A stretch of 64,000 nt of DNA, taken from Labilibacter marinus (GTDB lineage Bacteria > Bacteroidota > Bacteroidia > Bacteroidales > Marinilabiliaceae). The number at the start of each line of letters is the position of its first letter. The first letter of the stretch is position 1. Shown piece by piece: positions 21,336-45,098 of this stretch. A program made the translations under genes and the position numbers. Under the pieces are notes generated by a model that saw only the letters and a program-made list of their open reading frames with translations, was not told the origin of the DNA and did not search any database. Where the stretch lies: NCBI RefSeq assembly GCF_001659685.2, contig NZ_LXYE02000001.1, positions 310,001-374,000 on the forward strand, given 5' to 3'.

Positions 21336-21532
21336 TAGGATAGAAGCTTTAGCTCAACGGAGCAATAGTTCAGTGCAATGCATAGGAAACTTAGAAAAGG
21401 AATAAATCGGCGCAATAAACCTGTGAAGTGAAGAAATAGGTTGAAACGCAAAAATTCAAACAAATACAATTTTACGTTAAAAGAAAAATGAAACCAGTGT
21501 CCTTGAGATGCTGTGTTTTTAAACTGAAAATA

Positions 21533-22639: not shown

Positions 22640-23820
22640 TGGAGAAGCTATCATTTGAGGAAAGGTTGAGCAAGATTAAAGCCGACCATAACGCACTGAT
22701 TGAAAAAACGAATAAAGAAAAATTTAGCACCAATGGCATATATGCTCGTTACGAAAACCCAATTGTAAGCAGAGATCATATTCCGTTGAGTTGGCGCTAC
22801 GATTTAAATAAGGAAACAAATCCGTTTTTAATGGAACGTATTGGTTTTAATGCGGCATTTAATGCAGGAGCTATCAAGCTAAATGGTAAATATTTATTGG
22901 TGGTAAGAGTGGAAGGGAACGATAGAAAATCATTTTTTGCTGTTGCGGAAAGTCCCAATGGTATCGATAATTTTAAATTTTGGGATAGACCAATAACACT
23001 TCCTCAAAATGATAAGCCTGATACCAATGTGTATGATATGCGTTTAACCCAGCACGATGATGGTTATATTTACGGAGTTTTTTGCACCGAGCGAAAAGAC
23101 CCTAATGCACCAGAAGGTGATACATCAACCGCTATGGCTGAAGCGGGTATTGCACGTACTAAGGATTTAAAAACATGGGAGCGTTTGCCCGATTTAATAT
23201 CTACCACAGGACAGCAACGTAATGTTGTACTTTTTCCGCATTTAATCGAAGGCAAATACGCTTTTTATACCCGTCCTCAGGATGGATTTATTGATACAGG
23301 TAAAGGTGGTGGAGTAGGTTTTGGATTATCTGAATCAATTGAAAAACCGGAAGTGAAGGAAGAACTTATAGTTGACCCGAAGACTTATCATACCATCTAT
23401 GAGGTGAAGAATGGTTTAGGGCCTGCTCCAATTAAAACAGAATATGGTTGGCTGCAATTAGCTCATGGTGTTCGTAATACGGCAGCAGGTTTAAGATATA
23501 CGCTTTATATGTTTATGACCGATTTAGAAAAACCTTGGGTAGTAACGCATAAGCCACACGGACATTTTATAGCACCTTTACAAGAAGAACGAATTGGAGA
23601 TGTATCTAATGTGGTGTTTTCAAATGGTTGGATTAAGGATGACGATGGGCAGGTGAAGATATATTATGCATCATCAGATACAAGAATGCACGTGGCGACT
23701 TCAACAGTGGAACAGTTACTAGATTACTGTATGAATTCGCCTCAAGATAAACTACACTCACATTTGTCTGTAGAAACTATTAACGAATTAATTGATAAGA
23801 ATTATAGTTTATGTAAGTAG
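22639..23820 (+). CDS. 4-O-beta-D-mannosyl-D-glucose phosphorylase (GH130)
   Basis: 393 residues, no signal peptide, so cytoplasmic. Five-bladed propeller of GH130 subfamily 1: NPIVSRDHIPLSWRYD, RIGFNAAFNAGAIKL, the probable acid Asp133 in NVYDMRLTQHDDG, TTGQQRNVVLFPH and GGGVGFGLSESIEKP. Known members phosphorolyse mannosyl-glucose to alpha-mannose-1-phosphate and glucose (EC 2.4.1.281). Translational overlap with the GH26 gene upstream and the epimerase gene downstream reproduces the mannobiose pathway described in Bacteroides fragilis. Length is normal for the family. Confidence 0.93.
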   Translation: MEKLSFEERLSKIKADHNALIEKTNKEKFSTNGIYARYENPIVSRDHIPLSWRYDLNKETNPFLMERIGFNAAFNAGAIKLNGKYLLVVRVEGNDRKSFFAVAESPNGIDNFKFWDRPITLPQNDKPDTNVYDMRLTQHDDGYIYGVFCTERKDPNAPEGDTSTAMAEAGIARTKDLKTWERLPDLISTTGQQRNVVLFPHLIEGKYAFYTRPQDGFIDTGKGGGVGFGLSESIEKPEVKEELIVDPKTYHTIYEVKNGLGPAPIKTEYGWLQLAHGVRNTAAGLRYTLYMFMTDLEKPWVVTHKPHGHFIAPLQEERIGDVSNVVFSNGWIKDDDGQVKIYYASSDTRMHVATSTVEQLLDYCMNSPQDKLHSHLSVETINELIDKNYSLCK

Positions 23821-23825
23821 TTTTT

Positions 23826-23851
23826 AGGGAACACCTCATGGGGTGTTCTCT
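23826..23851 (+). terminator. Hairpin after the GH130 gene
   Basis: GAACACC (23829-23835), loop TCATGG, then GGTGTTC (23842-23848), followed by an AT-rich stretch. It probably attenuates rather than ends transcription, because the epimerase follows directly in the same direction. Confidence 0.5.
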
Positions 23852-23888
23852 AATTATTTATTCTATTTACTAAAACAATAAATAAAAT

Positions 23889-25109
23889 ATGAATATAATA
23901 GCTGATAACTCAATAAGGACTGAGTTGAAAAAGTTAGGTCAGGAGGTGACGCAAGAATTAATTAGGCTTTTGAATTATTGGGCCAATGAAACGCGGGACG
24001 AAAAAAACGGAGGTTTTATTGGGCAGATAGACCACTTTGGTAATATAAATGAGAAAGCTACCAAAGGTATGGTTTTAAATGCCCGTATTTTATGGACCTT
24101 TTCCTCTGCTTATCGAGTTACAGGAAAAAAGTCATATGAAAAACTGGCAGATGTTGCTTACCATTATTTAATGCAAAATTTTTGGGATAAGGAAGAAGGT
24201 GGTTTTTATTGGTCTGTTGATTATTTAGGAGCGGTAGAGAACTCTCGAAAACAAGCCTATGCCCAAGGTTTTGGTGTTTACGGTTTAGCAGAATATCATA
24301 GGGCAACGGGCCATCAGGAAGCCCTAGAATATGCGAAAGAGCTTTACTTTATTATAGAAGAAAAATATTGGGATAAAGACTTTGGAGGTTATATAGAAGC
24401 CTTGGGTAAGGATTGGCAAAATCTTGAGGATATGAGGTTGAGCGATAAAGATGCCAATATGCCCAAATCAATGAATACTCATCTTCATTTATTAGAGCCG
24501 TACGCCTGTTTATATAGGGTTTGGCCTAATCATTCATTAAAAGCAAGTATTAAGTCATTACTCCATATTTTTCAGGATAAAATAATCGATAAAAAAAGTG
24601 GTCACTTCAATCTATTTTTTGAAATGGACTGGACAATTAAATCAAAAGCTATTTCCTTTGGTCATGATATTGAAGGAGCCTGGTTGATGCATGAAGCAGC
24701 AGAGTTAATTGACGATGAAGAGCTGCTTATAAACATACAGAAAACTGCTCTTAATTTAGTTGATATCACCATAAAAGAGGGCTGTGATACAGATGGTGCT
24801 TTATTTAATGAGCAAGAAGAGCATCATTTAGATAGTGACAAACACTGGTGGCCTCAAGCCGAAGCTATGGTTGGTTTGGTAGATGCCTGGCAAATAAATG
24901 GCAACACTGCATATCTAATTAGCATGGAGAAAATATGGAAGTTTATTAAAGATAAACTCATCGATAAAGGACATGGAGAATGGTATTGGAGGGTAGATAA
25001 AAATGGTGATCCTATTACATGTGAAGATAAAGTGGGTTTTTGGAAATGCCCGTATCACAATGGACGTGCATTAATGGAGGTTTCTGAACGAATTAATAGG
25101 TGCAAATAA
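23889..25109 (+). CDS. Cellobiose/mannobiose 2-epimerase (AGE family)
   Basis: 406 residues, no signal, cytoplasmic (alpha/alpha)6 barrel. Motifs: GGFIGQIDHFGNINEKATKG, SFGHDIEGAW with His259, KHWWPQAEAMVGL, and CPYHNGRALMEV with His390, the two His positions used in catalysis by characterised cellobiose 2-epimerases. In this operon the natural substrate is beta-1,4-mannobiose, which it converts to mannosyl-glucose for the GH130 phosphorylase encoded just upstream. EC 5.1.3.11 by family and context. Confidence 0.92.
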   Translation: MNIIADNSIRTELKKLGQEVTQELIRLLNYWANETRDEKNGGFIGQIDHFGNINEKATKGMVLNARILWTFSSAYRVTGKKSYEKLADVAYHYLMQNFWDKEEGGFYWSVDYLGAVENSRKQAYAQGFGVYGLAEYHRATGHQEALEYAKELYFIIEEKYWDKDFGGYIEALGKDWQNLEDMRLSDKDANMPKSMNTHLHLLEPYACLYRVWPNHSLKASIKSLLHIFQDKIIDKKSGHFNLFFEMDWTIKSKAISFGHDIEGAWLMHEAAELIDDEELLINIQKTALNLVDITIKEGCDTDGALFNEQEEHHLDSDKHWWPQAEAMVGLVDAWQINGNTAYLISMEKIWKFIKDKLIDKGHGEWYWRVDKNGDPITCEDKVGFWKCPYHNGRALMEVSERINRCK

Positions 25110-25121
25110 AAACTAATAAAG

Positions 25122-25331
25122 ATGGTGTCGTGGGATGGGATTAATTTAATAATTCAGCGTGTAGAAAGTATAAATCTAGTCACTGTATTTAATGAATCAG
25201 GGCAATGTATATATGAAAATTCACCTCAGGAAGTAATTGGAATATCGGCTAAATTAGCCAATGATAAACGACTTTTAGTGGTGCTGAATTTTAAATTTAG
25301 CGATAGTAAGAGTTACGTACTAAAGGCGTAA
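25122..25331 (+). CDS. 69-residue frame resembling a T9SS C-terminal sorting domain
   Basis: Begins 12 bases after the epimerase stop. The sequence pattern INLVTVFNESGQCIYE, then ISAKLANDKRLLVVL, ending SKSYVLKA, looks like the beta-sandwich C-terminal domain that marks T9SS cargo. Here it has no cargo and no signal peptide, so it is more likely the 3' end of a gene lost by rearrangement than a working protein. Could also be a genuine small protein. Confidence 0.4.
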   Translation: MVSWDGINLIIQRVESINLVTVFNESGQCIYENSPQEVIGISAKLANDKRLLVVLNFKFSDSKSYVLKA

Positions 25332-25409
25332 AAAAAAGAATCAATAAGCGTGTTGTAATAAGCAAAAAAATGGGGTACTTAAAATTCCTTGTTTGTAAAT
25401 CAAAATATT

Positions 25410-26786
25410 ATGTCAGAAAAACTACATATTAAAGAAAAAATAGGCTACGGATTTGGAGATTTTGCATCCTCTATGTTCTGGAAGATTTTTGCCATGTACT
25501 TAACTTTCTTCTATACAGATGTGGTGGAGTTGAGTCCTGAATCGGTGGCTATGATGTTTATAATGGTTCGCCTTTGGGATGGTTTAAACGACCCCTTGAT
25601 GGGAATCATTGCCGACCGAACCAATACCTCAAAAGGCAAGTTTCGTCCATTTTTATTATGGGTAGCTATACCATTTGGTGTCATCGGAATTCTGACTTTT
25701 TCGGTGCCTGATATTGGTCCCTCTGGAAAATTGATTTATGCCTACATTACTTACACCTTAATGATGATGGTGTATACAGCTATTAATGTACCGTATGGCT
25801 CGTTAATGGCAGTGATGACGGATGATCCTAAAGAGAGAACGAGCTTGGCTTCATTCAGGTTTATCGGAGCTTACTCAGGAGGAATAGCCATGACAGCTTC
25901 TGCTCCTTATATACTCGATTTCTTTAAAAATGCAGGTGCTTCTGATGCCAAAAGTTATTCATATATGGTGGTGATATACGCCATTGTTGCTGCTTTCTTT
26001 TTTGTAATGACTTACCTATGGACCAAAGAAAGAGTAAAAGCGCTAAAAAAAAATAATTCTATAGGAAGTGATTTAAAAGATTTAGCCAAGAATGTACAAT
26101 GGTTTATTATGCTAGGAGCGGGAATTTTAATGCTGGTATTCTTAACATTCCGAGAATCGAGTATTATGTATTATTTCAAATACTTTGTGCAAGATCAAAG
26201 TTTAGCGTTTTTTGGTGATGTAAGCTGGGGTAAATTATCAGGTGCTTATATGACAATTTGGTTGGTGGCGAATATGGTTGGTGTTTTATTGGCTATACCA
26301 GTTTCTAATATATTAGGTAAAAAAACTACATTTATTGTAGCCATGTTCATATCCGCAATTTTAAGTATATTAATGTATTGGTTAAACCCACAGCAAGTAT
26401 ATTTAATTTTTGCACTTAATTTTATTAACGGCGTAAGTGCGGGCATTGTGTTACCCCTAGTTTGGTCGATGTATGCCGATATTGCGGATTACTCCGAATG
26501 GAAAACAGGAAGGCGAGCCACAGGGTTATTATTCTCGTCTTCGTCCATGTCGCAAAAGTTAGGTTTGATGGCAGGAGGAGCATTACCATTGTATATTCTT
26601 GCTTCTTATGGTTTTGAAGCTAATGCGGAACAAACAGAGCAATCGTTGGAAGGAATCAAGTTAATGATTAGTATTTTTCCTGGCCTCACGGCTGCTTTAT
26701 CTGGCGCCTTACTGTTGTTATATAAGTTAAATGATAAGTTCATGGCAAAAGTTACGGACGAACTAGCGAGTAAACGAGAAGGATAG
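25410..26786 (+). CDS. GPH-family sugar:cation symporter
   Basis: 458 residues from ATG 25410 (MSEKLHIKEKIGYGFGD); the frame also has an upstream TTG, which is unlikely. Twelve transmembrane helices. Signatures of the glycoside-pentoside-hexuronide group include KIGYGFGDFASSMFWK, RLWDGLNDPLMGIIADRT, KGKFRPFLLW and MYADIADYSEWKTGRRATG. In the B. fragilis-type mannan pathway the same position encodes the inner-membrane mannobiose transporter, and I infer that role here. Substrate not proven. Confidence 0.9.
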   Translation: MSEKLHIKEKIGYGFGDFASSMFWKIFAMYLTFFYTDVVELSPESVAMMFIMVRLWDGLNDPLMGIIADRTNTSKGKFRPFLLWVAIPFGVIGILTFSVPDIGPSGKLIYAYITYTLMMMVYTAINVPYGSLMAVMTDDPKERTSLASFRFIGAYSGGIAMTASAPYILDFFKNAGASDAKSYSYMVVIYAIVAAFFFVMTYLWTKERVKALKKNNSIGSDLKDLAKNVQWFIMLGAGILMLVFLTFRESSIMYYFKYFVQDQSLAFFGDVSWGKLSGAYMTIWLVANMVGVLLAIPVSNILGKKTTFIVAMFISAILSILMYWLNPQQVYLIFALNFINGVSAGIVLPLVWSMYADIADYSEWKTGRRATGLLFSSSSMSQKLGLMAGGALPLYILASYGFEANAEQTEQSLEGIKLMISIFPGLTAALSGALLLLYKLNDKFMAKVTDELASKREG

Positions 26787-26823
26787 CTTATACACGTCTT
26801 CGATATAAATTAGAGATTAATGA

Positions 26824-26904
26824 TATATCAAACTCAGGTTATTAAAAGTAAAGGCCACGGATAGTAAAGGGCAAACATTTACCTCTCATAAATCATTGAA
26901 ATAA
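26824..26904 (+). pseudogene. Relic of a second T9SS-type C-terminal domain
   Basis: Between the symporter and the sulfatase one frame reads LRLLKVKATDSKGQTFTSHK and ends SLK at TAA 26902-26904. The pattern (LLKVKA..DSKGQTFTSHKSLK) is typical for the last strands of a T9SS sorting domain. No start codon and no cargo precede it. It looks like the tail of a deleted gene. Confidence 0.4.
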
Positions 26905-26922
26905 AAAATTAACTTTCCCTTA

Positions 26923-28692
26923 ATGAAAAAATCTTTTCAATTTATAGTCTTCGTATTGTTATTACTCGGTACATTCAGTTGTCATGTGCCCATGCATGAT
27001 GAAGTTAAATCACCTAATGTTTTGTTAATTATTACCGACGATCAAGCATATGGCGATTTATCTATGAATGGGAATTCATGGGTTGAAACCCCCGTTATCG
27101 ACAAGCTTGCGAGTGAAGGAGCTTATGCTAACCATTTTTATGTAAGTCCTGTTTGTGCGCCAACCAGAGCCAGTTTATTAACAGGACGCTATCATCAGCG
27201 AACTGGTGTTACTGGAGTTACTCGCGGACGTGAAGACATGCGTCTGGATGAAGTAACGGTGGCAGATGTTTTCAAATCTGCTGGTTATGCAACCGGAATA
27301 TTTGGTAAATGGCATAATGGAGCACATTATCCTTATCATCCAATGGGACGTGGTTTCGATGAGTTTGTGGGTTTTACCTCAGGTCATTGGAGCAATTATT
27401 TTAACACTACCATCGAAAAGAATGGTAAACCTTATAAAACGAATGGTTATTTACCTGATGTTCTAACAGATGAAGCCATCTCATTTATCAATAAATCAAA
27501 TCAGGAAGGGAAGCCATTTTTCTGTTATTTACCATATCAAACTCCGCATACACCTTTGCAAGTGCCTGATAAGTATTTTGATAAATATAAGAGCAAGGGG
27601 GTAGATGATTTTAATGCATGTATTTATGGGATGTGCGAAAATATAGATGATAATGTTGGTAAACTCCTATCTACTCTTGATAATTTACAAATAAGAGAAA
27701 ATACGGTAGTCATTTATTTATCAGATAATGGGCCTTTGAATTACCGTTTTAACAATGAGTTAAAAGGTAGAAAAGGCCAAGTGGATGAAGGTGGCGTCCG
27801 TGTGCCGTTTATTATTAATTGGGCAAAGCAAATTAAAAAAGGAGTTATCATAGATGAGGCACTGGCACACATAGATATATTACCCACTTTATTATCCTTA
27901 ACTAATATTAAATATAGTTTCGATAAACCTTTAGATGGAGAGAGTTTTAAAAGCCTTTTGGAGGGAGATAAAGCATTCCCGAAACGATATTTGTTTAATG
28001 AGTTCTTTGGAAGAAAACGCGTGTTAGCCGACCCTTATCTGATGGTGGAAAATTCTTTGTATGACATACGTAAGGATGCCAGTCAAAAAGATGACCTAAG
28101 CCATGAAAAACCTGAGTTATATGATTCTTTGAAAAATGCTTTTGATACTTGGTTTCAAGAAGTCTCACCTAAGCAAATAGAGGAAAAATTTATACCTGTT
28201 GGTTATAACGATTACCCCAAAACAATTTTGCCAGCTCACGAAGCGGATTTGTTTCCTCCGTTTGAAGCGCGAAAAGACAGACGTCATACAGGTATTGCCT
28301 ATCATAGTTTGTATGGCTGGGCACACGATTGGATTGATTTCTGGACAAACACAGAAGCCTATGCGCAATGGCAGATTGAGGTGATTGATTCAGGTGAGTA
28401 TGAATTAGAAATATATTATGCGCTTGCACCAGAGGATGTAGGTACTAATCTGCAAATTCAAATTGGAGAACAATCCGTCGAATTTGCAATAGATATACCG
28501 TTTGAGCATGAGGCTTTTAAGAATTATGATAGGGTGGTGAGAGAACAGGAGGCGCCTGAAACAAACTGGAACAGACTGAATGTAGGTAAACTAAATCTTA
28601 CAACAGGAAAATATAAGGTGCAGGTTCATGCGTTGGAAATTAAGGGCAGTAAAACAATTGAGTTAAAAGAACTTCATTTAATAAAGAATTAA
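26923..28692 (+). CDS. S1-family sulfatase with C-terminal beta domain, lipoprotein
   Basis: 589 residues. Lipoprotein signal (LGTFSCHV). The alkaline-phosphatase-like catalytic domain (about 30-410) has NVLLIITDDQAYGDL, the formylglycine site Cys78 in VCAPTRASLLTGRY, GIFGKWHNGAH and YLSDNGPLN. The motif is C-x-P-T-R, which lacks the commoner Ser/Ala at position four. Residues about 445-589 form an extra beta-sandwich-like, possibly carbohydrate-binding, domain (YAQWQIEVIDSGEYELEIYY). It removes sulfate esters from glycans after activation by a maturase not present in this window. A sulfatase in a mannan locus is uncommon and hints at a sulfated mannan. Confidence 0.9.
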   Translation: MKKSFQFIVFVLLLLGTFSCHVPMHDEVKSPNVLLIITDDQAYGDLSMNGNSWVETPVIDKLASEGAYANHFYVSPVCAPTRASLLTGRYHQRTGVTGVTRGREDMRLDEVTVADVFKSAGYATGIFGKWHNGAHYPYHPMGRGFDEFVGFTSGHWSNYFNTTIEKNGKPYKTNGYLPDVLTDEAISFINKSNQEGKPFFCYLPYQTPHTPLQVPDKYFDKYKSKGVDDFNACIYGMCENIDDNVGKLLSTLDNLQIRENTVVIYLSDNGPLNYRFNNELKGRKGQVDEGGVRVPFIINWAKQIKKGVIIDEALAHIDILPTLLSLTNIKYSFDKPLDGESFKSLLEGDKAFPKRYLFNEFFGRKRVLADPYLMVENSLYDIRKDASQKDDLSHEKPELYDSLKNAFDTWFQEVSPKQIEEKFIPVGYNDYPKTILPAHEADLFPPFEARKDRRHTGIAYHSLYGWAHDWIDFWTNTEAYAQWQIEVIDSGEYELEIYYALAPEDVGTNLQIQIGEQSVEFAIDIPFEHEAFKNYDRVVREQEAPETNWNRLNVGKLNLTTGKYKVQVHALEIKGSKTIELKELHLIKN

Positions 28693-28706
28693 ACTAAGAG
28701 AATTTT

Positions 28707-29957
28707 ATGGTGTTTTTGAATAAATATAGTTTGTTATTTCTGGTTGGATTAGTCTTGTTGTCTTGTGCACAATCAAAGGTGAAAAAGGAGAATACATATG
28801 ATTCCTCGATTAAGAATTCTATTTCATTTTTCGATAAAGCTTTTGATAATAGTCGAGGAGTATATTTGTCGGAAGTTGACTTTTTGGGAGATACCATATC
28901 ATCTAAAATTCATACGGTTGCTTTGAGCCGTTTAATTTATGGCTTGGCCTACTCTTCAAAATACTTTCCTGAGAATTTAAAGCGAGCTGAACGTTTGGCT
29001 AAGTTTCAAATGTCAAGAATGTTGGAAAAAGACAGTGTTGGACTTTACTTTATTCCTGAAGTAGGAGAAGGAAAAATCAGTCAATCCGAAAGTTTGGATA
29101 TCTGGCAACAAGCATATGGCTTATGCGGACTTACAGAGCTTTATCGTTCTAGTAAGGACGCTGGATTATTAGCTGAAATACATCACCTTAATGAGGCATT
29201 TATAGAACGCTTTAGAGACACAGAGAATGGAGGTTTTTATAGCGAGTATAATCTTAATTCTGGTGTAGTTTCAGGAACAAAGACCATTCAGTCGTTGATG
29301 TATCCCATAACCGCTTATATGGCTAATTTATGGTTGGCTGATAAAACAAATCGTCTCAAGTACGAAGAGATTATCAAAGAACACTTATCGATTGCTTACA
29401 GTAAGGTTTGGAATGATTCCATAGGTTGGGTAAATACAAAGTTCGACGACAAGTGGAACCCTATGATTGAATCAAAAGAAAAAGCCTGGGTAACGCCAGG
29501 ACATAACTTTCAGTTTGCGGCTTTAATGCTTCGAAGTGCAAAATGGCCTTTTGTTTCTGTTGAAAATCAAGTGAAATATGAAAAAATGGGCACAAGCATC
29601 CTTAAAGAAACATTAACAAAAGATATCTGGATAAACGATTCTATTACTAAAGGATTTTATGGAGGAATCAATCCATTAACCAATAAGGTGCTGGATAAGA
29701 ATCGTTCCTGGTGGCAGCATTGTGAAGCTTTAATTGCCTTGTCTTTTTGTCCGGAATTAAAAGAAGAGTTCGAATCCATCAAGCAATTCTATTTTGATTC
29801 TTTTGTAGATGTTAAAAATGGAGGAGAAATTGCCAATATCGATTTAGAAGGGAAGCCAATCATCGAACCCAAAGGCCAAAAAGGAAAATCAGTTTATCAT
29901 CATATCGAAATGTTAAGAGTATTAAACGAAACCGGCATGGCCGGAGCAAATAATTAG
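28707..29957 (+). CDS. Exported AGE-fold lipoprotein (epimerase-like)
   Basis: 416 residues. Lipoprotein signal with Cys20 (GLVLLSCAQS). The rest is an (alpha/alpha)6 barrel related to the cellobiose 2-epimerase encoded upstream: GGFYSEYNLNSGVVSGTKT, TPGHNFQFAALML with His266, SWWQHCEALIALS and VYHHIEMLRVLNE with His398/His399. The two His positions used by AGE enzymes appear conserved, so it may be catalytic outside the cytoplasm, which is unusual for a family known from cytoplasmic enzymes. It could be an epimerase or isomerase on surface oligosaccharides, or a glycosidase-like relative. It starts 14 bases after the sulfatase. Confidence 0.75.
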   Translation: MVFLNKYSLLFLVGLVLLSCAQSKVKKENTYDSSIKNSISFFDKAFDNSRGVYLSEVDFLGDTISSKIHTVALSRLIYGLAYSSKYFPENLKRAERLAKFQMSRMLEKDSVGLYFIPEVGEGKISQSESLDIWQQAYGLCGLTELYRSSKDAGLLAEIHHLNEAFIERFRDTENGGFYSEYNLNSGVVSGTKTIQSLMYPITAYMANLWLADKTNRLKYEEIIKEHLSIAYSKVWNDSIGWVNTKFDDKWNPMIESKEKAWVTPGHNFQFAALMLRSAKWPFVSVENQVKYEKMGTSILKETLTKDIWINDSITKGFYGGINPLTNKVLDKNRSWWQHCEALIALSFCPELKEEFESIKQFYFDSFVDVKNGGEIANIDLEGKPIIEPKGQKGKSVYHHIEMLRVLNETGMAGANN

Positions 29958-30108
29958 GTCATCTAGAAGTATATCTATCTCACCAAAACGGAAATTGAAG
30001 ATTACACTAGTTATCATGTTTTTGCTAATTTTTAAAGATATAAATAAATCAAAAAAAACTCAGTGCCCCTGTGTCTCTGTGTTCTTTTGTCCCGGAAAAC
30101 TAACTAAA

Positions 30109-31389
30109 ATGAAAAACTACCTGTATTATTTAACTACTTGGATAGCTGCCACAATTGTTCTATTCTCATGTCAACAAGCTGATTTGCCAAATGAATTCGT
30201 ACAGGTTAAAGACGGCTCATTTCTTCTAAACAATAAACCTTATCATTTTAAAGGAGCTAATTATTGGCAAGGGATGAACCTTGGAGCTCCTGCATCAGGT
30301 GATAGAGACAGGTTAAGACGCGAGTTGGATCAGCTGAAGGAAATAGGTGTTTCAAACCTTAGGGTGTTAGCGGCAAGTGAAGCTGACACCTCAATGCGTT
30401 TTGCGATTCATCCCGCTTTACAGACAGCGCCAGGAGTATATAATAAGGATATTTGGCAAGGCTTAGATTTTTTATTAGATGAAATGTCTAAACGAGATAT
30501 GAAGGCTGTAATGGTGTTGAGTAATTTTTGGACTTGGAGTGGTGGATTTCCACAATACATAAAATGGGCCGATGGTGTGCCTATTCCCTATCCTCAGGAT
30601 GAAGCCCATTCGTGGGATGAGTTTCAGCAATTTTCTGCAGGTTTTTATTCCAATAGCATGGCGCAGGATATGCTGATTAGTCACATTGAAAAAGTGATTA
30701 ATCGTGTAAACTCAATTTCTGGCTTATCCTATAAAGATGACCCAACGATTATGGCTTGGCAATTGGCCAATGAACCTAGAGGTATAAATGTGCCTGAAAA
30801 GTTTAGAGCATGGACTGCTAATACTTCGGCTTATATAAAATCGTTGGATAAAAACCATTTGGTAGGCCTAGGAACTGAAGGTAATACAGCAGGAATAATG
30901 GCTGGAGTAAATGTATTGTTAGATAATGATGATATTAATATCGATTATATAACGATGCATATTTGGGCGCAAAACTGGGGTTGGTTTAAGCCTGGCGATG
31001 GGGAAAAAGTTTTTGAAGAAACATTGCAAAAAGTAGATGCTTATTGGAATGATCATGTAAAGGTCGCTAAAAAACTAAATAAGCCTATTGTGTTGGAGGA
31101 ATTTGGTATTGCCCGCGATAGCTCTTCATATTTACCTGCTGCAACAAGCTATTGGCGCGACAAATATTTTGAATATCTATTTAAAAAAGTAAAAGAATCT
31201 GTAGCAGCTAATGAGCCTGTAAAAGGTTTTAATTTCTGGAGTTACTCAGGGGAGGGAAGACCATCACGACCTGGTGAATATTGGCAAAAAGGAGATGTAC
31301 TTTTAGGTGACCCTCCGCATGAGTTACAAGGATGGTATGGTGTGTATGATACAGATAGTACTACGCTTAATCTGATAAAGAAGTATTGA
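30109..31389 (+). CDS. GH5 endo-beta-1,4-mannanase, lipoprotein
   Basis: 426 residues from ATG 30109, chosen for its lipoprotein signal (IAATIVLFSCQQAD). The same frame is open back to 29995, but that part is repeat-like sequence with codons unlike a gene. GH5 barrel (about 32-425): FKGANYWQGMNLGAP, LSNFWTWSGGFPQYI, acid/base Glu222 in QLANEPRG, MHIWAQNWGW, and nucleophile Glu331 in IVLEEFGIARD. This pattern fits subfamily 7 mannanases. It closes the mannan operon. Confidence 0.92.
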   Translation: MKNYLYYLTTWIAATIVLFSCQQADLPNEFVQVKDGSFLLNNKPYHFKGANYWQGMNLGAPASGDRDRLRRELDQLKEIGVSNLRVLAASEADTSMRFAIHPALQTAPGVYNKDIWQGLDFLLDEMSKRDMKAVMVLSNFWTWSGGFPQYIKWADGVPIPYPQDEAHSWDEFQQFSAGFYSNSMAQDMLISHIEKVINRVNSISGLSYKDDPTIMAWQLANEPRGINVPEKFRAWTANTSAYIKSLDKNHLVGLGTEGNTAGIMAGVNVLLDNDDINIDYITMHIWAQNWGWFKPGDGEKVFEETLQKVDAYWNDHVKVAKKLNKPIVLEEFGIARDSSSYLPAATSYWRDKYFEYLFKKVKESVAANEPVKGFNFWSYSGEGRPSRPGEYWQKGDVLLGDPPHELQGWYGVYDTDSTTLNLIKKY

Positions 31390-32914: not shown

Positions 32915-34321
32915 CTACTGTAGCCAACTTTTCTCAATTTCTTCTATGGTTCTTCCTTTGGTTTCTGGCATCCAATAGCGAACAACAGGGAATAAAAGAA
33001 GTAATTCTCCAGCAAATATTAAGAATATTATACCAGTGCTCATACTTTCTCTCATAACAGGGAATAGGAAGTTGATGGTAGCACTGGCAGCCCAAATGGT
33101 AAAGGTTGATATGGCAATGGCTTTTCCCCTTACTTTATTCGGAAAAATTTCGGAAACAAATACGTACTTAACGGGACCTAGAGCCATGGCAAAAAAGGCA
33201 ACAAATAAATTGATGGCTATTACAATAGGCCAGCCTGTTTGACTTGTAGAGAATAAATACCATATAAAAATATGCGCGAAAAATGTACCAATAATACCAA
33301 CGGTAAGCAGTTTTTTTCTTCCTGCAGAATCCACAAAGCGTAGTGCAAATATGGTGGCTATAAAGTTAACAATGGCTATGGTAGCAAAACCACCTAAAGA
33401 ATCACCTAAAGCAAAACCTGCTTCTTCAAATATTTGTGGGCCGTAGTAAAACACAACGGATACTCCACAGGCTTCGGATAGAAAACAGATAAGCACGGCT
33501 ATTATTAATGGCGTTCTTAATTTTTTGGTAAATAAATCAGAGAATTTTACGTTGGATTCTTCTTTTACAGTACTTTCTATTTCTTCACCAATTTCTTCTG
33601 CTCGCTTTGCGGGGTTAAAATATTTCAGAATCTTTACAGCTTCAGTCTTCCTTTCTTGTTGCATTAACCATCTTGGACTTTCAGGAATGAAAAAGGCTGT
33701 AGCCATAAATATTAAACCAGGTATTGCTTCTGCTAAATACATGGCTCTCCAGTTTTCTGTAACGAGTAGGTATTTCTTCCAAGTAGCTATGTCGCTAGTC
33801 TGGTTATTCTCGGCATAGGTGAATATACCCCAATTGGCAAATACACACATAATAATACCAATGGTTATGGTTAATTGAAATAAAGTAACCATCCTGCCTC
33901 GATATTGCTCTGGCGATATCTCCGATATATATAAAGGGCAAACCATAGTTGCGGCACCAATTCCCAATCCTCCGATAAGCCGGGCCGAAATTAATTCTGG
34001 AACCGACTGGGCAACGCCGCTCCAAATAGCAGAAATCAATAATACAAATGCAGCTGTCATCAAGGTCTTTTTGCGACCCAATTTATCTGCAACCCAACCT
34101 GCAAGTCCTGAACCAACCATACATGCCCATAAAACACAGCTCACGTAAAATCCTAGTTCGGCAGATGAAAATGTAAATTGTGTTTCAACTTGCGAGATGG
34201 TTCCTGATACTACCACGGCATCATATCCGAATAAAAGACCGCCACAGGCAGCAACTATACTTACAAACCATAAGTATACTATTGATTTTTTTTCAGGTGA
34301 TTTAATAGAGTTGTTAGTCAT
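32915..34321 (-). CDS. Sugar-porter MFS transporter (sugar:H+ symporter type)
   Basis: 468 residues, twelve transmembrane helices. Sugar-porter signatures: [14 protein letters not shown] in helix 1, [13 protein letters not shown] in loop 2-3, [10 protein letters not shown] at the central loop, [15 protein letters not shown] in loop 8-9 and [12 protein letters not shown] after helix 12. Substrates of the family are monosaccharides and polyols. It diverges from the AraC gene at 34429, with a shared operator 89 bases upstream of its start. The same operator precedes the glycyl radical enzyme gene, so transporter and enzyme are probably one regulon and handle the same sugar or polyol. Substrate unknown. 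Confidence 0.92.
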
Positions 34322-34409
34322 GCAAATAGTTTGCTTATTTAAAGATGTATTTTATCGATTACAAAAAAAAGCTATAGCAGATAGAATAAATTTAACTAAC
34401 ATTGCAAAT

Positions 34410-34424
34410 ACTTGGATAATCTTA
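34410..34424 (-). promoter_or_regulatory. Operator copy 1 upstream of the MFS transporter
   Basis: On the minus strand TAAGATTATCCAAGT, followed 11 bases after its TCCAAG by TTAGT. An identical 15-mer in the same orientation relative to its gene lies at 35263-35277. This copy is 89 bases upstream of the transporter start and only 4 bases before the AraC start codon, so it could also mediate autorepression. Confidence 0.7.
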
Positions 34425-34428
34425 TTAT

Positions 34429-35250
34429 ATGTCAGTAAACTTTAATTCAAATATTAAGCTACTAAATGGTGGTGCGTATTGCGGAGCTAGTGATTGGAAT
34501 AAATCAGCCAACGATATTGATAATTGTTTTAAGTTGTACTTTTTAAGGAGTGGCAAGGTTGAATTTTATAGTAATAATAAGGTTTATACAATTGAAGGTC
34601 CTAATTTGTATTTAATTAATGGTTATGCAATCAGTTCACAAAAATGTATCGATAAATTTGTAGTGGATTGGCTTCATTTTATACCAGAGTCTGTATATTT
34701 CAACCACCTTTTACGCTCAACATCTTGTGTAACTATCCTAAATATTAATGAGTTTACCTCGTTTCAGCCCTTATTTAAAAAGTATAATCCATATTTTTTG
34801 TGTAGGATGAGTAACGACCAAGAAAGAATTACGAAGCTTGAAATTCAATCTTTTTTGCAGTTTGCTTTGGCTAAGGTATTTTACTCTATTGATACAAAGT
34901 TATTTGAAACCAATAATACTATTCTTCGTTTGTTGCCAGCTCTCGAATATATTGCACAAAACTATACATCTGAAATTCGATTAAGCAAATTAGCCGAAAT
35001 TTGTTTTTTGTCGCCTAATTACTTTCATCGTTTATTTACAAAGAATTTTGAAGTTTCTCCTTTGGTGTATATTCGACAAATGCGATTAGAGGAAGCTATA
35101 AGGCAATTGGTTTATACCACCAAAAATGTGAAAGAAATAGCTTTTTTCTTAGGTTATGAAGATGAAGCTTATTTCTCTCGGACATTCTCTAACGTATATA
35201 AAATAAGTCCTGGTAGGTATCGAAAAGAAAATCGCAAAAAATTGCCTTAA
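34429..35250 (+). CDS. AraC-family regulator of the glycyl radical enzyme unit
   Basis: 273 residues. N-terminal AraC_binding-type cupin (about 30-100, SGKVEFYSNNKVYTIEGPNL) and C-terminal double helix-turn-helix (about 165-265) with IRLSKLAEICFLSPNYFHRL and VKEIAFFLGYEDEAYFSRTF, ending KISPGRYRKEN. It lies between the divergent MFS gene and the glycyl radical enzyme gene, each of which has the same 15-bp motif upstream. It most likely activates both in response to the transported compound. Confidence 0.9.
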   Translation: MSVNFNSNIKLLNGGAYCGASDWNKSANDIDNCFKLYFLRSGKVEFYSNNKVYTIEGPNLYLINGYAISSQKCIDKFVVDWLHFIPESVYFNHLLRSTSCVTILNINEFTSFQPLFKKYNPYFLCRMSNDQERITKLEIQSFLQFALAKVFYSIDTKLFETNNTILRLLPALEYIAQNYTSEIRLSKLAEICFLSPNYFHRLFTKNFEVSPLVYIRQMRLEEAIRQLVYTTKNVKEIAFFLGYEDEAYFSRTFSNVYKISPGRYRKENRKKLP

Positions 35251-35262
35251 TATTAGATAAGG

Positions 35263-35297
35263 TAAGATTATCCAAGTTTTAGAAAAATTAGTCCAAG
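35263..35297 (+). promoter_or_regulatory. Operator copy 2 upstream of the glycyl radical enzyme
   Basis: TAAGATTATCCAAGT at 35263-35277, then TTAGT and a second TCCAAG at 35292-35297. The two TCCAAG half-sites are 21 bases apart, two helical turns, the usual spacing of AraC-type direct repeats. It ends 81 bases before the enzyme start if only the 15-mer is counted. Confidence 0.7.
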
Positions 35298-35358
35298 GCG
35301 TACTTGTTTCTTATGTCCGACCTTTGTCAAGGAATTTATAATTAATTTCTTAATAAAG

Positions 35359-37632
35359 ATGAAGGAATCTAAAGTTCGGAAAAAATTTGTACCTGATAAT
35401 AGGATGCAAGCCTTAATTGATAGGCGTTTACAATTGGTTGTTGGTCAAAAACGACATGTGTTATGTGATAATGCTGAGTTCCTTGTATATCATTGGTCAG
35501 GAAAAGCATCAACGTTTGCTCCAGCTACAGGAGAGCATGCGGATAAAGAAAGTAGAATAGAGATTGGCGACCATAGTGCCAGGGTGGATAATGGGATGGA
35601 TTTTCCTTTTACGCAAGAAATACCTTCTCGTAAAAATAATAGTTTCGAATTATCAGCTTTAAACTGGGCCAAAGACTATGCCTTTTTTATCGACCACAGT
35701 CCGGCAGAAGTTTATGCGAACGAAGCATTGGTGGGTGAATTTCATTGGCAATTGGATGAGGCGCGACACTTTCAATATCCTGATGAACAAAAGGAAGCTG
35801 GGTTTTTAGCACGAGAGCTAGGAGCAGGAGGAATTAGCTTTGCGCATACTTGCCCCGATTTAAGTATTGGTTTAAAATTAGGATGGACTGGATTACTTGA
35901 TAAAGTAAGAAAGTACAAGAAGCAATATCAGGAAAAAGGAGAGAGTGAAAGAGTCGAGTACTTAGCAGGATCTGAGTTAGTCATTGAATCCATCATCCGT
36001 TATATACAACGCCATGTGGATAAGGTGAAAGAACTTGCTGCTAGTGAGATAAATAATGATCAGCTCAATATTTATTTATCTATTGCTGAAACTTGTGAAG
36101 CAATTGCGACCAGAGCCCCTCAAACCTTAAAAGAAGCGGTGCAATGGATTTGGATGTTTCAGGTAGTGGAGCGTATGCATGGTCATGGCAATGGTTATGG
36201 AAGAACAGATCAGTTATTAATTGATTTTTATAAGTCTGACATGGAAAAAGGTATCCTTACACGTCAGGAAGCTCGCGAACTGGTAGGGGAGATGTATATT
36301 AAATATGGTAGTTACACAGCTTTGGGCGGTCGTTTACAAGATGGTAGTGATGCAACTAACGAGATGAGCTGGGTGTGTTTAGAAGCCTACGATCTAGTAG
36401 GTGGAATTAATCATTTGGGTGTAATGTGGCATCCGGAAATGGATAAAGAATTTTATGCATATGCCAATGATATTTTAACCCGCCATGGTTGTGGGGTTCC
36501 TACTTTGGTTAATTATGATGTATTAAAAGCCAGTGAAGTACGATCAGGGTATAAACCTGAGGATGCTTGGAATATTGCCTACAGTGGGTGTCAATGGTAC
36601 TGTGGAGTAGGAACGGAATATAATGATCAGGATGTAAATAGTTTGGTGTTGCTTAAACCAATGCAACGTGCCATTGAATTGGGAATCGAGCAAAAGATTG
36701 ATTCATTTGGGGCTCTGTGGAATATTTATAATGAAGAAGTAGATAAAACTGCCAATGCGTTAGTGGATTTTAAGAATGCAACTTACAACTGGCAAGCAAA
36801 GGTATGGCCAGAGATGGTAACCACTTTTTGTATGCACGATTGTATTGAGAAGGGGCGTGATTGCACGGATATTGATGCCGTGAGGTATAATTATACTTCA
36901 GTAAATGTTTTGGGAGTTCCTAATGTATCTGATTCGCTTTATGCTATAAAAAAACTAGTTTTTGAAGATAAAACATACACCCTTGCTCAAATGCAAGCGG
37001 CTATTGAGTCGGATTGGGAAGGCCAAGAAATCATGCGTCAGCATTTTCTGAATTGCTCTAAGTTCGGAAATGATGAAGATGCCAGTGATGATATGGCAAT
37101 TCAAGTTTCTGAAAATGTGCGTGAGATTCTGGAAAGTAAGAAAAATATAAAGGGTTTTAATTTCCGACCTTCCTTGTTTCAATATATGGGACATACCTAT
37201 GCTGGTCCTATGTTAGGCGCAACTCCAGATGGCCGAAAAGCCTCAGAGCCCATTGCACATGGTATGAACCCAATGCATGGAAGGAATCATAAAGGCATTG
37301 CTGCTACGGTGGAATCTTTCTGTAAACTTGATTTTTCTAAATATCAGGGAGGCTCATTTCAATTAGAGTTAACACCTAATTTCTTTAAAACAGGTTCTGA
37401 TTCAGGAAAACTAATGGATAGCTTTTCGCAAAACTTTTTTAATAAAGGAGGTGTGCAGATTAATTTTAATCTAGTGGATTTTAAAGTTCTTGAAGAGGCA
37501 ATGAATGATAATGAAAATCCAATTTATCATGATATTAATGTAAAAGTTACCGGGTACTCGAGTCATTTTGTGACTATGGATAAAAAATTTCAGAAAGAGT
37601 TTATAGAGAGAGTTAATTATCAGAATTTATAA
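35359..37632 (+). CDS. Glycyl radical enzyme of the PFL/diol-dehydratase superfamily, unknown substrate
   Basis: 757 residues, near the usual length. The glycyl radical loop near the C-terminus is VKVTGYSSHFV with Gly732. The superfamily motifs FGNDEDASDD and GATPDGRKASEPIAHGMNP are present. The thiyl site reads SGCQWYCGVG with Cys411 and Cys415. Dehydratases and choline lyase have GCVE, where the Glu two after Cys acts as base; pyruvate formate-lyase has CC. Neither pattern is here, so I do not assign a known reaction. Oxygen-sensitive and cytoplasmic. Its activase follows after 15 bases, and the same operator controls a sugar-porter transporter, so the substrate may be a sugar, polyol or derived acid. 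Confidence 0.9.
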   Translation: MKESKVRKKFVPDNRMQALIDRRLQLVVGQKRHVLCDNAEFLVYHWSGKASTFAPATGEHADKESRIEIGDHSARVDNGMDFPFTQEIPSRKNNSFELSALNWAKDYAFFIDHSPAEVYANEALVGEFHWQLDEARHFQYPDEQKEAGFLARELGAGGISFAHTCPDLSIGLKLGWTGLLDKVRKYKKQYQEKGESERVEYLAGSELVIESIIRYIQRHVDKVKELAASEINNDQLNIYLSIAETCEAIATRAPQTLKEAVQWIWMFQVVERMHGHGNGYGRTDQLLIDFYKSDMEKGILTRQEARELVGEMYIKYGSYTALGGRLQDGSDATNEMSWVCLEAYDLVGGINHLGVMWHPEMDKEFYAYANDILTRHGCGVPTLVNYDVLKASEVRSGYKPEDAWNIAYSGCQWYCGVGTEYNDQDVNSLVLLKPMQRAIELGIEQKIDSFGALWNIYNEEVDKTANALVDFKNATYNWQAKVWPEMVTTFCMHDCIEKGRDCTDIDAVRYNYTSVNVLGVPNVSDSLYAIKKLVFEDKTYTLAQMQAAIESDWEGQEIMRQHFLNCSKFGNDEDASDDMAIQVSENVREILESKKNIKGFNFRPSLFQYMGHTYAGPMLGATPDGRKASEPIAHGMNPMHGRNHKGIAATVESFCKLDFSKYQGGSFQLELTPNFFKTGSDSGKLMDSFSQNFFNKGGVQINFNLVDFKVLEEAMNDNENPIYHDINVKVTGYSSHFVTMDKKFQKEFIERVNYQNL

Positions 37633-37647
37633 AGGATAAAGCTTTTA

Positions 37648-38592
37648 ATGAATAAAGGTCTTATTTATAAAATAGACAGACTTAATACGCATAACGGTTC
37701 TGGTTTTAGGACCGTTATTTATTTTAAAGGATGTCCTTTGCACTGCAGTTGGTGCCATAATCCAGAAGGTATTAACCCAAAACCTGAAGTTTGGATTAAT
37801 TCGTTAAAATGTATGGGTTGTGGAACATGTATATCACAATGTCCAGAACAAGCTTTAGGATTAATTGAGAAGGGAGTTTATCTAAATAGAGAAAAATGCA
37901 CGGGTTGTCAACTATGTGTAAATCCTTGTCCTACTATAGCAATTGAACCATTGGGGGCATATTATACAGTGGATGACTTAATGAAAATTATCCTTCAGGA
38001 TAAGATGTTATTTGAAACATCAGGAGGTGGAGTAACTGTTACCGGAGGAGAGCCAGGAATGCAGTCGGACTTTGTGGTTGAATTATTAAAGGCGTGTCAA
38101 GATGTTGGAGTAAATACTGCTTTGGATACCTCTGGAGTTGTATCATTACCTTCTTTAGGTAAGATGTTACAGTATTGTAATACTGTATTCGTCGATATTA
38201 AATTGTTCGATGATCAAGCATCTAAGTATTATACAGGATTGCCATTAAAGAAATTAAAGGAAACAATTAAGTATTTAAACAATTATAAAAAGGATACTCA
38301 AAATTTAAATATAGAAATTCGTACGCCGCTAATACCAGGAGTGAATGACGATAATGAAAGTCTAAAAAAGATTGCGAGTTTTATTCAGAAAACATTTACT
38401 CATGCACCCAAATGGGAGCTTTGTATGTTTAATGATTTGTGTGAAGATAAATATAATCGCATGAACATGGCTTGGGGTTTCAAAGGAAAAAAGCATGCTG
38501 CTAAAGATTATGAACGAATTAATCATCTTAAAGAGTCATTACCTATCGATGTAACAATTAGTGGATTTGTAGAAAGAAATAATAAGGACTGA
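37648..38592 (+). CDS. Glycyl radical enzyme activating enzyme (radical SAM)
   Basis: 314 residues. Radical SAM cluster CxxxCxxC in KGCPLHCSWCHNPEG (Cys29, 33, 36). Two extra [4Fe-4S] ferredoxin motifs lie between about residues 54 and 95 (CMGCGTCISQCP and CTGCQLCVNPCP), as in activases of diol dehydratase-type enzymes and unlike the pyruvate formate-lyase activase, which lacks them. GGGVTVTGGEP binds SAM. It abstracts a hydrogen from Gly732 of the enzyme encoded just upstream. Same transcript. Confidence 0.95.
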   Translation: MNKGLIYKIDRLNTHNGSGFRTVIYFKGCPLHCSWCHNPEGINPKPEVWINSLKCMGCGTCISQCPEQALGLIEKGVYLNREKCTGCQLCVNPCPTIAIEPLGAYYTVDDLMKIILQDKMLFETSGGGVTVTGGEPGMQSDFVVELLKACQDVGVNTALDTSGVVSLPSLGKMLQYCNTVFVDIKLFDDQASKYYTGLPLKKLKETIKYLNNYKKDTQNLNIEIRTPLIPGVNDDNESLKKIASFIQKTFTHAPKWELCMFNDLCEDKYNRMNMAWGFKGKKHAAKDYERINHLKESLPIDVTISGFVERNNKD

Positions 38593-42586: not shown

Positions 42587-43783
42587 ATGAAATTATATGT
42601 AATTCACATCTTGTTGATTTTTCTTTTTATTACATCGTGTATTGAGCCGTACCAAATAAATACAGAAGGAGAAGGTAAGTTTTTAGTAGTAGATGGGTTA
42701 GTAACCAATAGGGAGGGACCATATTCGGTATTGCTCAATTATTCTACACCAACATATACACCAAAATTCGAAAATGTTGCGAATGCTGAGGTGAAAATTG
42801 TAGAAGATTTAGATGAGGTTTATGTTTTAAATTATGTAGATAATGGAAAGTATCAAACAGATCCAAACTTTAGAGCAATAATTGGGAAGTCTTATAAATT
42901 ACAGATTGATATAGATACAAAGCATTATGAATCTGATTTATGTTTATTAAGAGAGCCTAGCTGTATTGATAATATTTCCATGCAAAAGAAAACTAAATTC
43001 GGGGGAGGCTATGGTGATGACGTATTGCAGCTTTTAGTAGATGCGAATGTTTGTTCTGAGGATGAAACTTGTTTAAGGTGGGATGTGAAAGAGGATTGGA
43101 AAATTCACCTTAGAAATCCAGAGTTTTTTTATATGGTAAATGATAGCACATTCGGTTGGACAAAGGATGTTATAACTGACTGTTATAAGAGTGATAAGAT
43201 TGACCGGATAGTTATTCAATCGTTTCAAAATCAAGCAGTAAGAAGTCTGGTAGCTAAGGGTGTGGCTTCTGTTTCTCCCTATATTTCGGATAGGTTTTTA
43301 ACGCGATATAGGGCTACAATAAACCAATACTCAATTTCTAAGCAAGAATACCATTTTTGGGATATGTTAAGGTCTTCGACTGAAAACAGCGAGGATTTTT
43401 TTGGTAGGCAGCCTTATAGTGTATACGGTAACATCAGTTGCATAACCAATCCTGATGAGAATGTATTGGGTTATTTTCAGGTTGCTGGCGTTACAAGTAA
43501 GGAAATATATGTTGATAGAGGTGATATTAGTCGTTTAGGTTTAGGAGTGTACAGTTATAGGCCTTGTGCTGTGGATACCATTCTCGTTTCGGATGAATAT
43601 AGTTTATATGAAGAATATATAAAAAAGATAAGGTCTAATGAGTGGATTTATAGCCAGAACTACTATACAGAAACTGCAAAGCCTGTTTTATTAGGTATTA
43701 CATTTTTAAGTGCTGAGTGTGGAAAGTGCTCTAAAAATAATGCACGTGTTGAACCTCCTTTGGGATGGGTAGATAATGATTAA
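42587..43783 (+). CDS. DUF4249 lipoprotein, copy 1
   Basis: 398 residues with lipoprotein signal, Cys18 (LFITSCIEPYQI). The mature start (GEGKFLVVDGLVTNREGPY, then an Ig-like VANAEVKIVEDL) is characteristic of DUF4249, a Bacteroidota surface lipoprotein family found beside TonB receptors. The C-terminus has a CxxC pair in SAECGKCSKNNARVEPP. The next gene is a close paralogue. Probable extracellular lid or binding partner of the receptor encoded on the other strand. Confidence 0.85.
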   Translation: MKLYVIHILLIFLFITSCIEPYQINTEGEGKFLVVDGLVTNREGPYSVLLNYSTPTYTPKFENVANAEVKIVEDLDEVYVLNYVDNGKYQTDPNFRAIIGKSYKLQIDIDTKHYESDLCLLREPSCIDNISMQKKTKFGGGYGDDVLQLLVDANVCSEDETCLRWDVKEDWKIHLRNPEFFYMVNDSTFGWTKDVITDCYKSDKIDRIVIQSFQNQAVRSLVAKGVASVSPYISDRFLTRYRATINQYSISKQEYHFWDMLRSSTENSEDFFGRQPYSVYGNISCITNPDENVLGYFQVAGVTSKEIYVDRGDISRLGLGVYSYRPCAVDTILVSDEYSLYEEYIKKIRSNEWIYSQNYYTETAKPVLLGITFLSAECGKCSKNNARVEPPLGWVDND

Positions 43784-43898
43784 ATAGGGCGTTTTGATGT
43801 ATAGGTATTTAGGTAGTAGGGTTCGCTGAAAATGAAGAATCTCGAACGAGAATAAATACCTTATGTAACTATAACTTGACAAAAAGGATAAAAATAAA

Positions 43899-45098
43899 AT
43901 GAAAATATATGTAATTAACTTAATGCTGGGTTTTCTTTTTATTACTTCATGTATTGATCCTTATCAGATAAATAGCAAAGGGGAAGGAAAGTACTTAATA
44001 GTTGATGGATTAGTGACCAATAGAGAGGGACCTTATTCGGTATTGCTCACATATTCTACGCCTCGATTTTCACCAATTAATGAAAAAGTGACGAATGCAA
44101 GTGTTAAAATTATTGACGATACAGGGGAGGAGCATCATTTAATATACCAAAACGATGGAAAGTATCAAACCAATCCTGACTTTAGAGCAAAGATTGGGAA
44201 ATCGTATAGGTTACTTATTGAGAATGATTCAAAGCGTTATGAATCTGATCTGTGTTTGCTGCGTGAACCTTCGTGTATTGATAATATTTCGATTCAAAAA
44301 AAGACCAAACCAGGAGAGTATTATAAAAACGATGTTTTGCAACTAAAAGTGGATGCGAGTATTTGTTCGGATAAAGAAACCTGTTTAAGATGGGATGTTA
44401 ATGAGGATTGGAAGATTCATCTTAGAAATCCAGATTATTTTTATATGGTCGATGATACAACATTTGGATGGCATGACGATGTGATAAAGGAATGTTATAA
44501 ATATGATAAGATTGAAGGCATTGTAATAAAGTCATTTCAAAATCAAGCAGAAAAAATTGTAACGGATAAATTGGTTGCTTCCATTTCTACATATACTTCG
44601 GATAGATTTTTTACACGCTATCGTGCAACGATAAATCAATACTCTATCTCACCTAAGGAATATAGTTTTTGGAATAGGTTAAAAGAAACGTCAGAAGAGC
44701 AAGAGGATTTCTTTGGTAAGCAACCTTATAGTGTTTATGGTAATGTAAAATGTATTGATAACCCAGAGGAGCAGGTGTTAGGTTATTTTCAAGTTGCAGG
44801 TGTTGCAAGCCGAGAAATATATATAGGCAGAGGTGATATTAGTAATTTAGGTTTAGGGGTATATAGTTATGAGCCTTGTGCTGTAGATACCTTGTTTGCA
44901 TCTGATGAATATAGTATATATGAAAAGTATTTGTTGAAGATTAGAAGCGATGAGTGGGTTCTAAGTAGTGGATTCTATAAGGAGGAATCTTTACCTCCAA
45001 CTCTCGAATTGCTTGGAGTTGTATTTATTGGTGCTGAGTGTGGAAAGTGTTCTAGAAATAATGCTCGGGTTGAACCTCCAATGGGCTGGATGGAATAA
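43899..45098 (+). CDS. DUF4249 lipoprotein, copy 2
   Basis: 399 residues, same architecture as copy 1: lipoprotein signal (FITSCIDPYQI), GEGKYLIVDGLVTNREGPYS, and C-terminal GAECGKCSRNNARVEPP. Long identical stretches, for example FRAKIGKSYRL against FRAIIGKSYKL and VYGNVKC against VYGNISC, show a recent tandem duplication. The last 40 residues before the CxxC differ most. The 115-base spacer contains no feature I recognise. Confidence 0.85.
   Translation: MKIYVINLMLGFLFITSCIDPYQINSKGEGKYLIVDGLVTNREGPYSVLLTYSTPRFSPINEKVTNASVKIIDDTGEEHHLIYQNDGKYQTNPDFRAKIGKSYRLLIENDSKRYESDLCLLREPSCIDNISIQKKTKPGEYYKNDVLQLKVDASICSDKETCLRWDVNEDWKIHLRNPDYFYMVDDTTFGWHDDVIKECYKYDKIEGIVIKSFQNQAEKIVTDKLVASISTYTSDRFFTRYRATINQYSISPKEYSFWNRLKETSEEQEDFFGKQPYSVYGNVKCIDNPEEQVLGYFQVAGVASREIYIGRGDISNLGLGVYSYEPCAVDTLFASDEYSIYEKYLLKIRSDEWVLSSGFYKEESLPPTLELLGVVFIGAECGKCSRNNARVEPPMGWME

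Follow-up and report, generated by a model that had tools for sequence, protein, structure and literature searches.

What does the glycyl radical enzyme (GRE) encoded at positions 35359 to 37632 (forward strand) of a 64,000-nucleotide stretch of Labilibacter marinus DNA act on, and does it belong to any GRE family already described? The stretch, referred to here as the window, covers positions 310,001 to 374,000 of contig NZ_LXYE02000001.1. The enzyme is 757 residues long and contains the two domains of the GRE superfamily, PFL-like (PF02901, E 5.9e-92) and Gly_radical (PF01228, E 2.9e-15). Its thiyl-radical loop, SGCQWYCGVG (residues 409–418, positions 36583 to 36612, forward strand), has a Trp (W413) two residues after the thiyl Cys (C411) and a second Cys at position 415. 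Judged by sequence comparison, it belongs to a separate, uncharacterised GRE lineage. Genes for alpha-L-fucosidases and sugar permeases recur beside its relatives, and the explanation preferred here, to which we give an even chance, is that this new lineage acts on free L-fucose or L-galactose, perhaps by C–O elimination.

Placement among glycyl radical enzymes

Relatives were collected by one profile search of genome contigs with a three-sequence alignment, together with two short, nearly exact patterns, and the list is therefore incomplete. It holds 28 homologous loci (56–86% identity over the best segment), or 29 with the window, in records labelled Bacteroidetes, Verrucomicrobia/Spartobacteria, Spirochaetes, Clostridiales, Phycisphaerales and others; the names of six records (L028, L029, L032, L034, L040 and L041) suggest host-associated anaerobes. 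The family is rare in whole-genome draws (E 1e-150), with one match in 395 for the phylum, three in 393 for the order and two in 344 for the order of Diplocloster. These draws gave one further match only (G848, partial and with an internal stop), all others being already in the set. Since the family is rare in the draws and spread over several phyla, its distribution suggests horizontal transfer. In L017 the activase is split into two open reading frames (12318–13282) and in L022 the GRE reading frame is only 661 residues long (846–2831), which is either assembly error or true decay.

All 28 family members that cover the site, the window included, have SGCQWYC; the 29th, L040, ends before the motif, and L033_10, a different GRE, is left out of this count. 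Because of this invariance, the motif is not the product of chance. An earlier note on this DNA had pointed out that the motif is neither the GCVE of dehydratases and lyases nor the Cys-Cys of pyruvate formate-lyase (PFL), and the alignments agree. Trp occupies Cys+2 in 28 of 28 members, whereas seven aligned dehydratase- or lyase-type references have Glu there; in the alignment to 1r8w, the Glu two residues past the thiyl Cys of glycerol and 1,2-propanediol dehydratases is absent. C415 is likewise invariant in the 28 and is found in none of the ten reference GREs. On the leaving-group side, H163, H276 and D425 align in sequence with the active-site His and Asp residues of 1r8w, and H163 and D425 correspond to what we take to be the leaving-group residues of glycerol dehydratase. 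The same note had described the glycyl loop and scaffold as intact, and both domains are indeed present; the loop reads KVTGYS (residues 729–734, positions 37543 to 37560, forward strand), with G732 as the presumed radical site, compared with RVAGYS in most reference GREs. The predicted structure has the full GRE fold. Among the folds closest to it are those of 1,2-propanediol and glycerol dehydratases, with the PflD fold tied with glycerol dehydratase.

The enzyme matches 11 NCBIfam models, and in every case its score stays far under the cut-off. It scores 318.7 bits against a cut-off of 678.2 for TIGR01774 (PFL2-3 subfamily), 260.3 against 1100 for HypD (NF043068), 246.5 against 1109 for the PflD-type formate C-acetyltransferase (NF007437), 217 and 213.5 against 1000 for two sulfopropanediol dehydratase models, 187.2 against 1050 for CutC, and 202.6 and 175.7 against 1100 and 1150 for the indoleacetate and hydroxyphenylacetate decarboxylases. 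The PFL-like Pfam domain would suit a diverged PFL, or another known GRE activity with a drifted motif, but this is very improbable: the score for PFL (TIGR01255) is 108.7 bits against 994.2, GCQW stands in place of Cys-Cys, a genuine PFL (1096.3 bits) is encoded elsewhere in the genome and the motif is conserved across phyla. For isethionate sulfite-lyase and the benzylsuccinate and alkylsuccinate synthases, which have no NCBIfam row and lie outside the tree, PDB chains match at the superfamily level only.

The tree comprises 24 long family members and ten reference GREs: PflB, PflD and YbiW of E. coli, the proteins of L007, L008, L009 and L014 (all named HypD by NCBIfam), the PFL of the L. 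marinus genome, the second GRE of L033, and a GRE with the motif GCNW (L006), which has no NCBIfam match at E 1e-120. The 24 family members form a single clade (support 1.000), which joins the GCNW enzyme (0.998) apart from YbiW, PflD and HypD (0.981); the clade lies outside PFL, HypD, YbiW and PflD. The earlier note knew of no characterised GRE with this motif; by both NCBIfam scores and tree, the enzyme clusters with no characterised family among those compared. Among the papers listed by literature searches on GREs, judged by titles and the starts of abstracts, none describes a GRE with Trp at Cys+2 that forms its own deep clade and lies inside fucosidase operons.

Other GREs were seen in passing. 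One Phycisphaerales metagenome-assembled genome has two of different lineages near each other (L033, 7572–9995 and 11857–14340); the one outside the present family, likewise no equivalog, scores 585.6–766.8 bits on six of the NCBIfam models named above. Another (L072, 8338–10653) has the thiyl motif LGCGEIVID and the glycyl loop RIGGFS; an SSF transporter and other carbohydrate-type genes surround it.

Fucosidases and other neighbours

Alpha-L-fucosidase genes of glycoside hydrolase family 29 (GH29) are present in 11 of the 29 loci, several of them in apparent operons with the GRE. One cluster of neighbours (c4) has 21 distinct members, all of which match PF01120, across ten loci. From the GH29 number and size of each genome, 1.10 genes and 1.06 loci are expected by chance (the expectation for the window being computed on 22 kb), and the excess has P ~1e-8 under independent positions. 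The eleventh locus, L025, is outside the 21 and has its GH29 gene between GRE and activase, with gaps of 50 and 21 base pairs (bp). A further GH29 fragment, also outside the 21, starts 38 bp after the GRE of L015 and slightly strengthens the link. For the 210 called neighbours in L015–L042 that are 230 residues or longer, a census of the 25 commonest families per set gives 19 matches to GH29, five to the GH95 catalytic domain, two to GH3 and two to porphyranase, and no other glycoside hydrolase among the matches listed comes near the count of GH29. The side of the GRE on which GH29 is found varies from branch to branch, so the association probably arose more than once. At genome level, 25 of the 29 distinct genomes have GH29, and that of L. 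marinus has 28 such genes.

The most constant partner is the activase, found on the downstream side of the GRE at 25 of the 29 loci (the window and 24 of the 28 others). Neighbouring genes were called mechanically, so weak or overlapping reading frames may be missed, and the activase count was repaired by tblastn. A suggestion that all four contigs without activase stop inside the GRE was rejected: L034, L037 and L040 do so, but L015 continues into the adjacent GH29 gene and ends there. The AraC cluster is present in 16 loci and a sugar-type-family transporter in 19. The transporters are FucP-like members of the major facilitator superfamily (MFS) in ten loci, RhaT in three (two of which also have a FucP-like protein), ribose-type ABC systems in four, and an SSF symporter, with no substrate assigned, in one. 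The sugar-porter cluster of the window occurs in only three loci, namely the window, L016 and L042. The earlier note would have given up a sugar system if homologues were never near sugar transporters, which the 19 loci contradict. The linkage of MFS, AraC and GRE that it proposed to survey is kept only in part, so these three do not form the conserved unit; GRE and activase do. The most informative partners are the GH29 genes, which were out of sight of the earlier note. Once activase, regulator and transporter are set aside, most loci have no other enzyme in common.

Some less frequent neighbours were also recorded. Proteins of the URO-D family, to which corrinoid methyltransferases also belong, turn up repeatedly close to the GRE, in L017, L019, L026, L030 and L036, which are records of different phyla. 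A PhyH-type oxygenase follows the activase in L018, L019, L021 and L022, an odd companion for an oxygen-sensitive enzyme. A xylose-isomerase-like TIM barrel follows the activase in L018, L021 and L022 and lies upstream of AraC in L042; a sequence search gave no PDB relative for it at E 0.01.

In the window itself, all four genes that the earlier note had named have the matching Pfam and NCBIfam families. The sugar-porter MFS transporter (468 residues, 32915 to 34321, reverse strand) matches Sugar_tr (E 4.8e-101) and exceeds the cut-off of TIGR00879 (327 bits against 237.8). It is separated by a divergent intergenic region of 107 bp (34322 to 34428), possibly a shared control region, from the AraC-family regulator (273 residues, 34429 to 35250, forward strand; HTH_18, PF12833, E 2.8e-22). 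The GRE begins 108 bp further on, and 15 bp after it, on the same strand, comes the radical-SAM activase (314 residues, 37648 to 38592), with Radical_SAM (E 8.9e-15), a ferredoxin-like insert matched by Fer4 in two stretches, and 265.7 bits against the cut-off of 174.35 of the glycyl-radical activase model TIGR02494. As for the idea that the four form one unit under the same control, it is well supported only for GRE and activase, whereas transporter and regulator presumably share their control. Two neighbouring, alike DUF4249 proteins of 398 and 399 residues (42587 to 45098) appear to be a tandem duplication.

A mannan-type locus at 19386 to 31389 adjoins this unit, with two GH26 proteins, a GH130, two 2-epimerase-family proteins, an MFS_2 sugar transporter, a sulfatase and a GH5-like protein. 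Together with the related GCNW enzyme of L073, which adjoins a GH47 gene and has a GH92 fragment ~5.5 kb away, it would favour mannose or a mannan-derived sugar as substrate. We regard this as improbable, as a gene of 358 residues, the divergent transporter and the AraC gene stand between the mannan genes and the GRE, and GH26, GH130, GH47 and GH92 are not among the neighbour families listed for the other 28 loci.

The sugar and the proposed reaction

The earlier note had a sugar, polyol or derived acid in mind as substrate. GH29 genes and sugar-type transporters, at the frequencies given above, support this and narrow it, as a first guess, to an L-fuco- or L-galacto-configured monosaccharide, although acids and polyols made from such a sugar may also serve. 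Gene context makes an L-fucose- or L-galactose-type sugar somewhat probable as the substrate class. L-galactose has the same ring configuration as L-fucose; both are abundant in algal polysaccharides, and fucose occurs in gut mucus. When the first four GH29 neighbours were compared with the PDB, each had as top match BpGH29 of B. plebeius, which is described as an alpha-L-galactosidase (PMC12316285). The conclusion that the neighbours are exo-alpha-L-galactosidases and the substrate L-galactose was nevertheless rejected. Since 18 of 19 GH29 genes taken as controls from outside the GRE neighbourhoods (drawn from the top of the genome GH29 list, 14 of them from L. marinus) also prefer BpGH29 over the fucosidase 4ni3, the preference carries no weight, and the GH29 of L025 does not share it. 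Toward L-galactose point L027_12, 62% identical to BpGH29, and two porphyranases in L016. Toward L-fucose points the TIGR00885 cut-off, passed by two of the four FucP-like proteins scanned with NCBIfam (the other two pass neither FucP model). L025 has a small GH29, with 60% identity to L021_18, that leans away from L-galactose, scoring 120.5 bits for 4zrx (named only as an F5/8 type C domain protein), 101.5 for the alpha-1,3/4-fucosidase 3ues and 41 for the L-galactosidase.

Alternatively, the enzyme could act further down the pathway, on a compound made from the sugar, for instance an acid, a ketose or a 1,2-diol like the 1,2-propanediol that fucose yields. The GRE of L042 belongs to Pontiella sulfatireligans, an organism that grows on L-fucose and ferments it to acetate, ethanol, H2 and 1,2-propanediol; in neither of the two strains of that study was fucK identified (PMC7356697). 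The dehydratases among the nearest folds fit such a substrate. However, the same organism is reported to excrete 1,2-propanediol and not to grow on it (PMC7356697). The Glu at Cys+2 that the seven dehydratase- or lyase-type references keep is missing, the neighbour families listed include neither microcompartment proteins nor aldehyde dehydrogenases, and the sugar permease in the operon imports the sugar itself. A downstream product is therefore considered unlikely.

For the preferred explanation, action on the free sugar, the following sequence of events is proposed. An exported alpha-L-fucosidase-type enzyme would release L-fucose or L-galactose, which a permease (the sugar-porter here, a FucP-like, RhaT or ABC system elsewhere) would import and AraC would sense. 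The activase would make the glycyl radical on G732; C411 would then become the thiyl radical and abstract hydrogen from one of the ring carbons of the unbound monosaccharide. The neighbouring hydroxyl might be eliminated by diol-dehydratase-like C–O cleavage with the help of H163 and D425, while W413 would pack against the sugar ring where other enzymes have a Glu base, and the product would be a deoxy-keto sugar or a deoxy-aldonolactone. C–O elimination is a tentative choice, largely a guess. The same sugar could instead undergo other chemistry, by a radical epimerase or isomerase or a C–C bond lyase, with C415 as second hydrogen donor or nucleophile. The invariance of C415, its absence from the references and the loss of Glu at Cys+2 are consistent with this, and the lack of a further common enzyme suits a single self-sufficient step. 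On the other hand, H163 and D425 are kept, in their presumed leaving-group roles, and the residue of the GCNW enzyme that aligns with C415 is a Ser, which makes this alternative doubtful.

Several observations weigh against action on free L-fucose or L-galactose. The whole 64-kb window has no GH29 match, its GRE adjoining a mannan locus instead; 18 of the 29 loci are without GH29, and the genomes of L030, L032, L036 and L037 have none at all. The Poisson figure for the excess assumes that GH29 genes are independently spread, and since they cluster, its significance is overstated. All four scanned FucP-like permeases fall short of the second FucP model, NF007524, which slightly weakens the fucosidase link. 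L-fucose isomerase (N-terminal domain) is found in 23 of 31 genome records, or 21 of 29 distinct genomes (G016/G057 and G017/G065 being the same genomes), and on this ground a GRE that simply replaces the isomerase was rejected. The loss of Glu weakens a plain diol-dehydratase mechanism. Residues 731–741 of the predicted structure have a pLDDT (predicted local confidence) <50, too low at the glycyl loop for active-site geometry to be drawn from the model, an approach that was rejected. The branch of L006 is very long, making its grouping less sure. Finally, L-fucose and L-galactose cannot be told apart as substrates.

To our knowledge, bacterial L-fucose routes start with isomerisation or oxidation. 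A radical route, if real, would be a sugar reaction new to the GRE superfamily, and it could explain fucosidase-rich genomes without an L-fucose isomerase match, such as that of L. marinus, in which none was found. More speculatively, GC(Q/N)W enzymes might form a functional branch that attacks free, unphosphorylated hexoses by way of a glycyl radical. Each clade would be tuned to one sugar, which would be L-fucose or L-galactose in the present family and one of mannose or rhamnose type in the GCNW enzymes. Anaerobic sugar breakdown would then have a radical route that starts without phosphorylation, and a Trp stacked on the ring would stand in for the usual catalytic Glu.

Comparison with known systems

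The closest relative in the tree, the GCNW enzyme, is present in L006 and L070 (9282–11435, the same gene) and in L073 (9346–11496, 64% identical); a search of viral contigs for it found none. It shares with the window enzyme the Trp at Cys+2 and an Asp at the D425 position, and in L070 it has activase, AraC and RhaT neighbours. However, it is only 25.6% identical to the window enzyme, and its context is a rhamnose-type permease or a mannosidase rather than a fucosidase. HypD, the trans-4-hydroxy-L-proline dehydratase, has the same GRE fold and occurs in several relatives of the L. marinus genome, but the window enzyme stays far below its cut-off and belongs to a separate clade. The B12-independent glycerol dehydratase (1r8w) and the GRE 1,2-propanediol dehydratases (5i2a, 9rco) are 23% identical to the window enzyme, which differs in having Trp for the Glu of GCVE and, in its family, a context of fucosidases and sugar permeases.

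YbiW and PflD, to which the structures 8id0 and 8id7 are related by title, resemble the window enzyme in having an activase beside the gene and in acting on sugar-derived substrates, as the window enzyme probably does. They are 25% identical to it and keep the Glu at Cys+2. According to PMC12441222, they cleave anhydro-hexitol 6-phosphates, substrates that are phosphorylated, anhydro and imported by the phosphotransferase system (PTS). PTS genes stand beside pflD in E. coli, whereas PTS is not among the neighbour families listed for the family of the window enzyme. Sugar-derived GRE substrates are already known from YbiW and PflD; what appears to be new here is a separate clade with Trp at Cys+2 that is linked to fucosidases.
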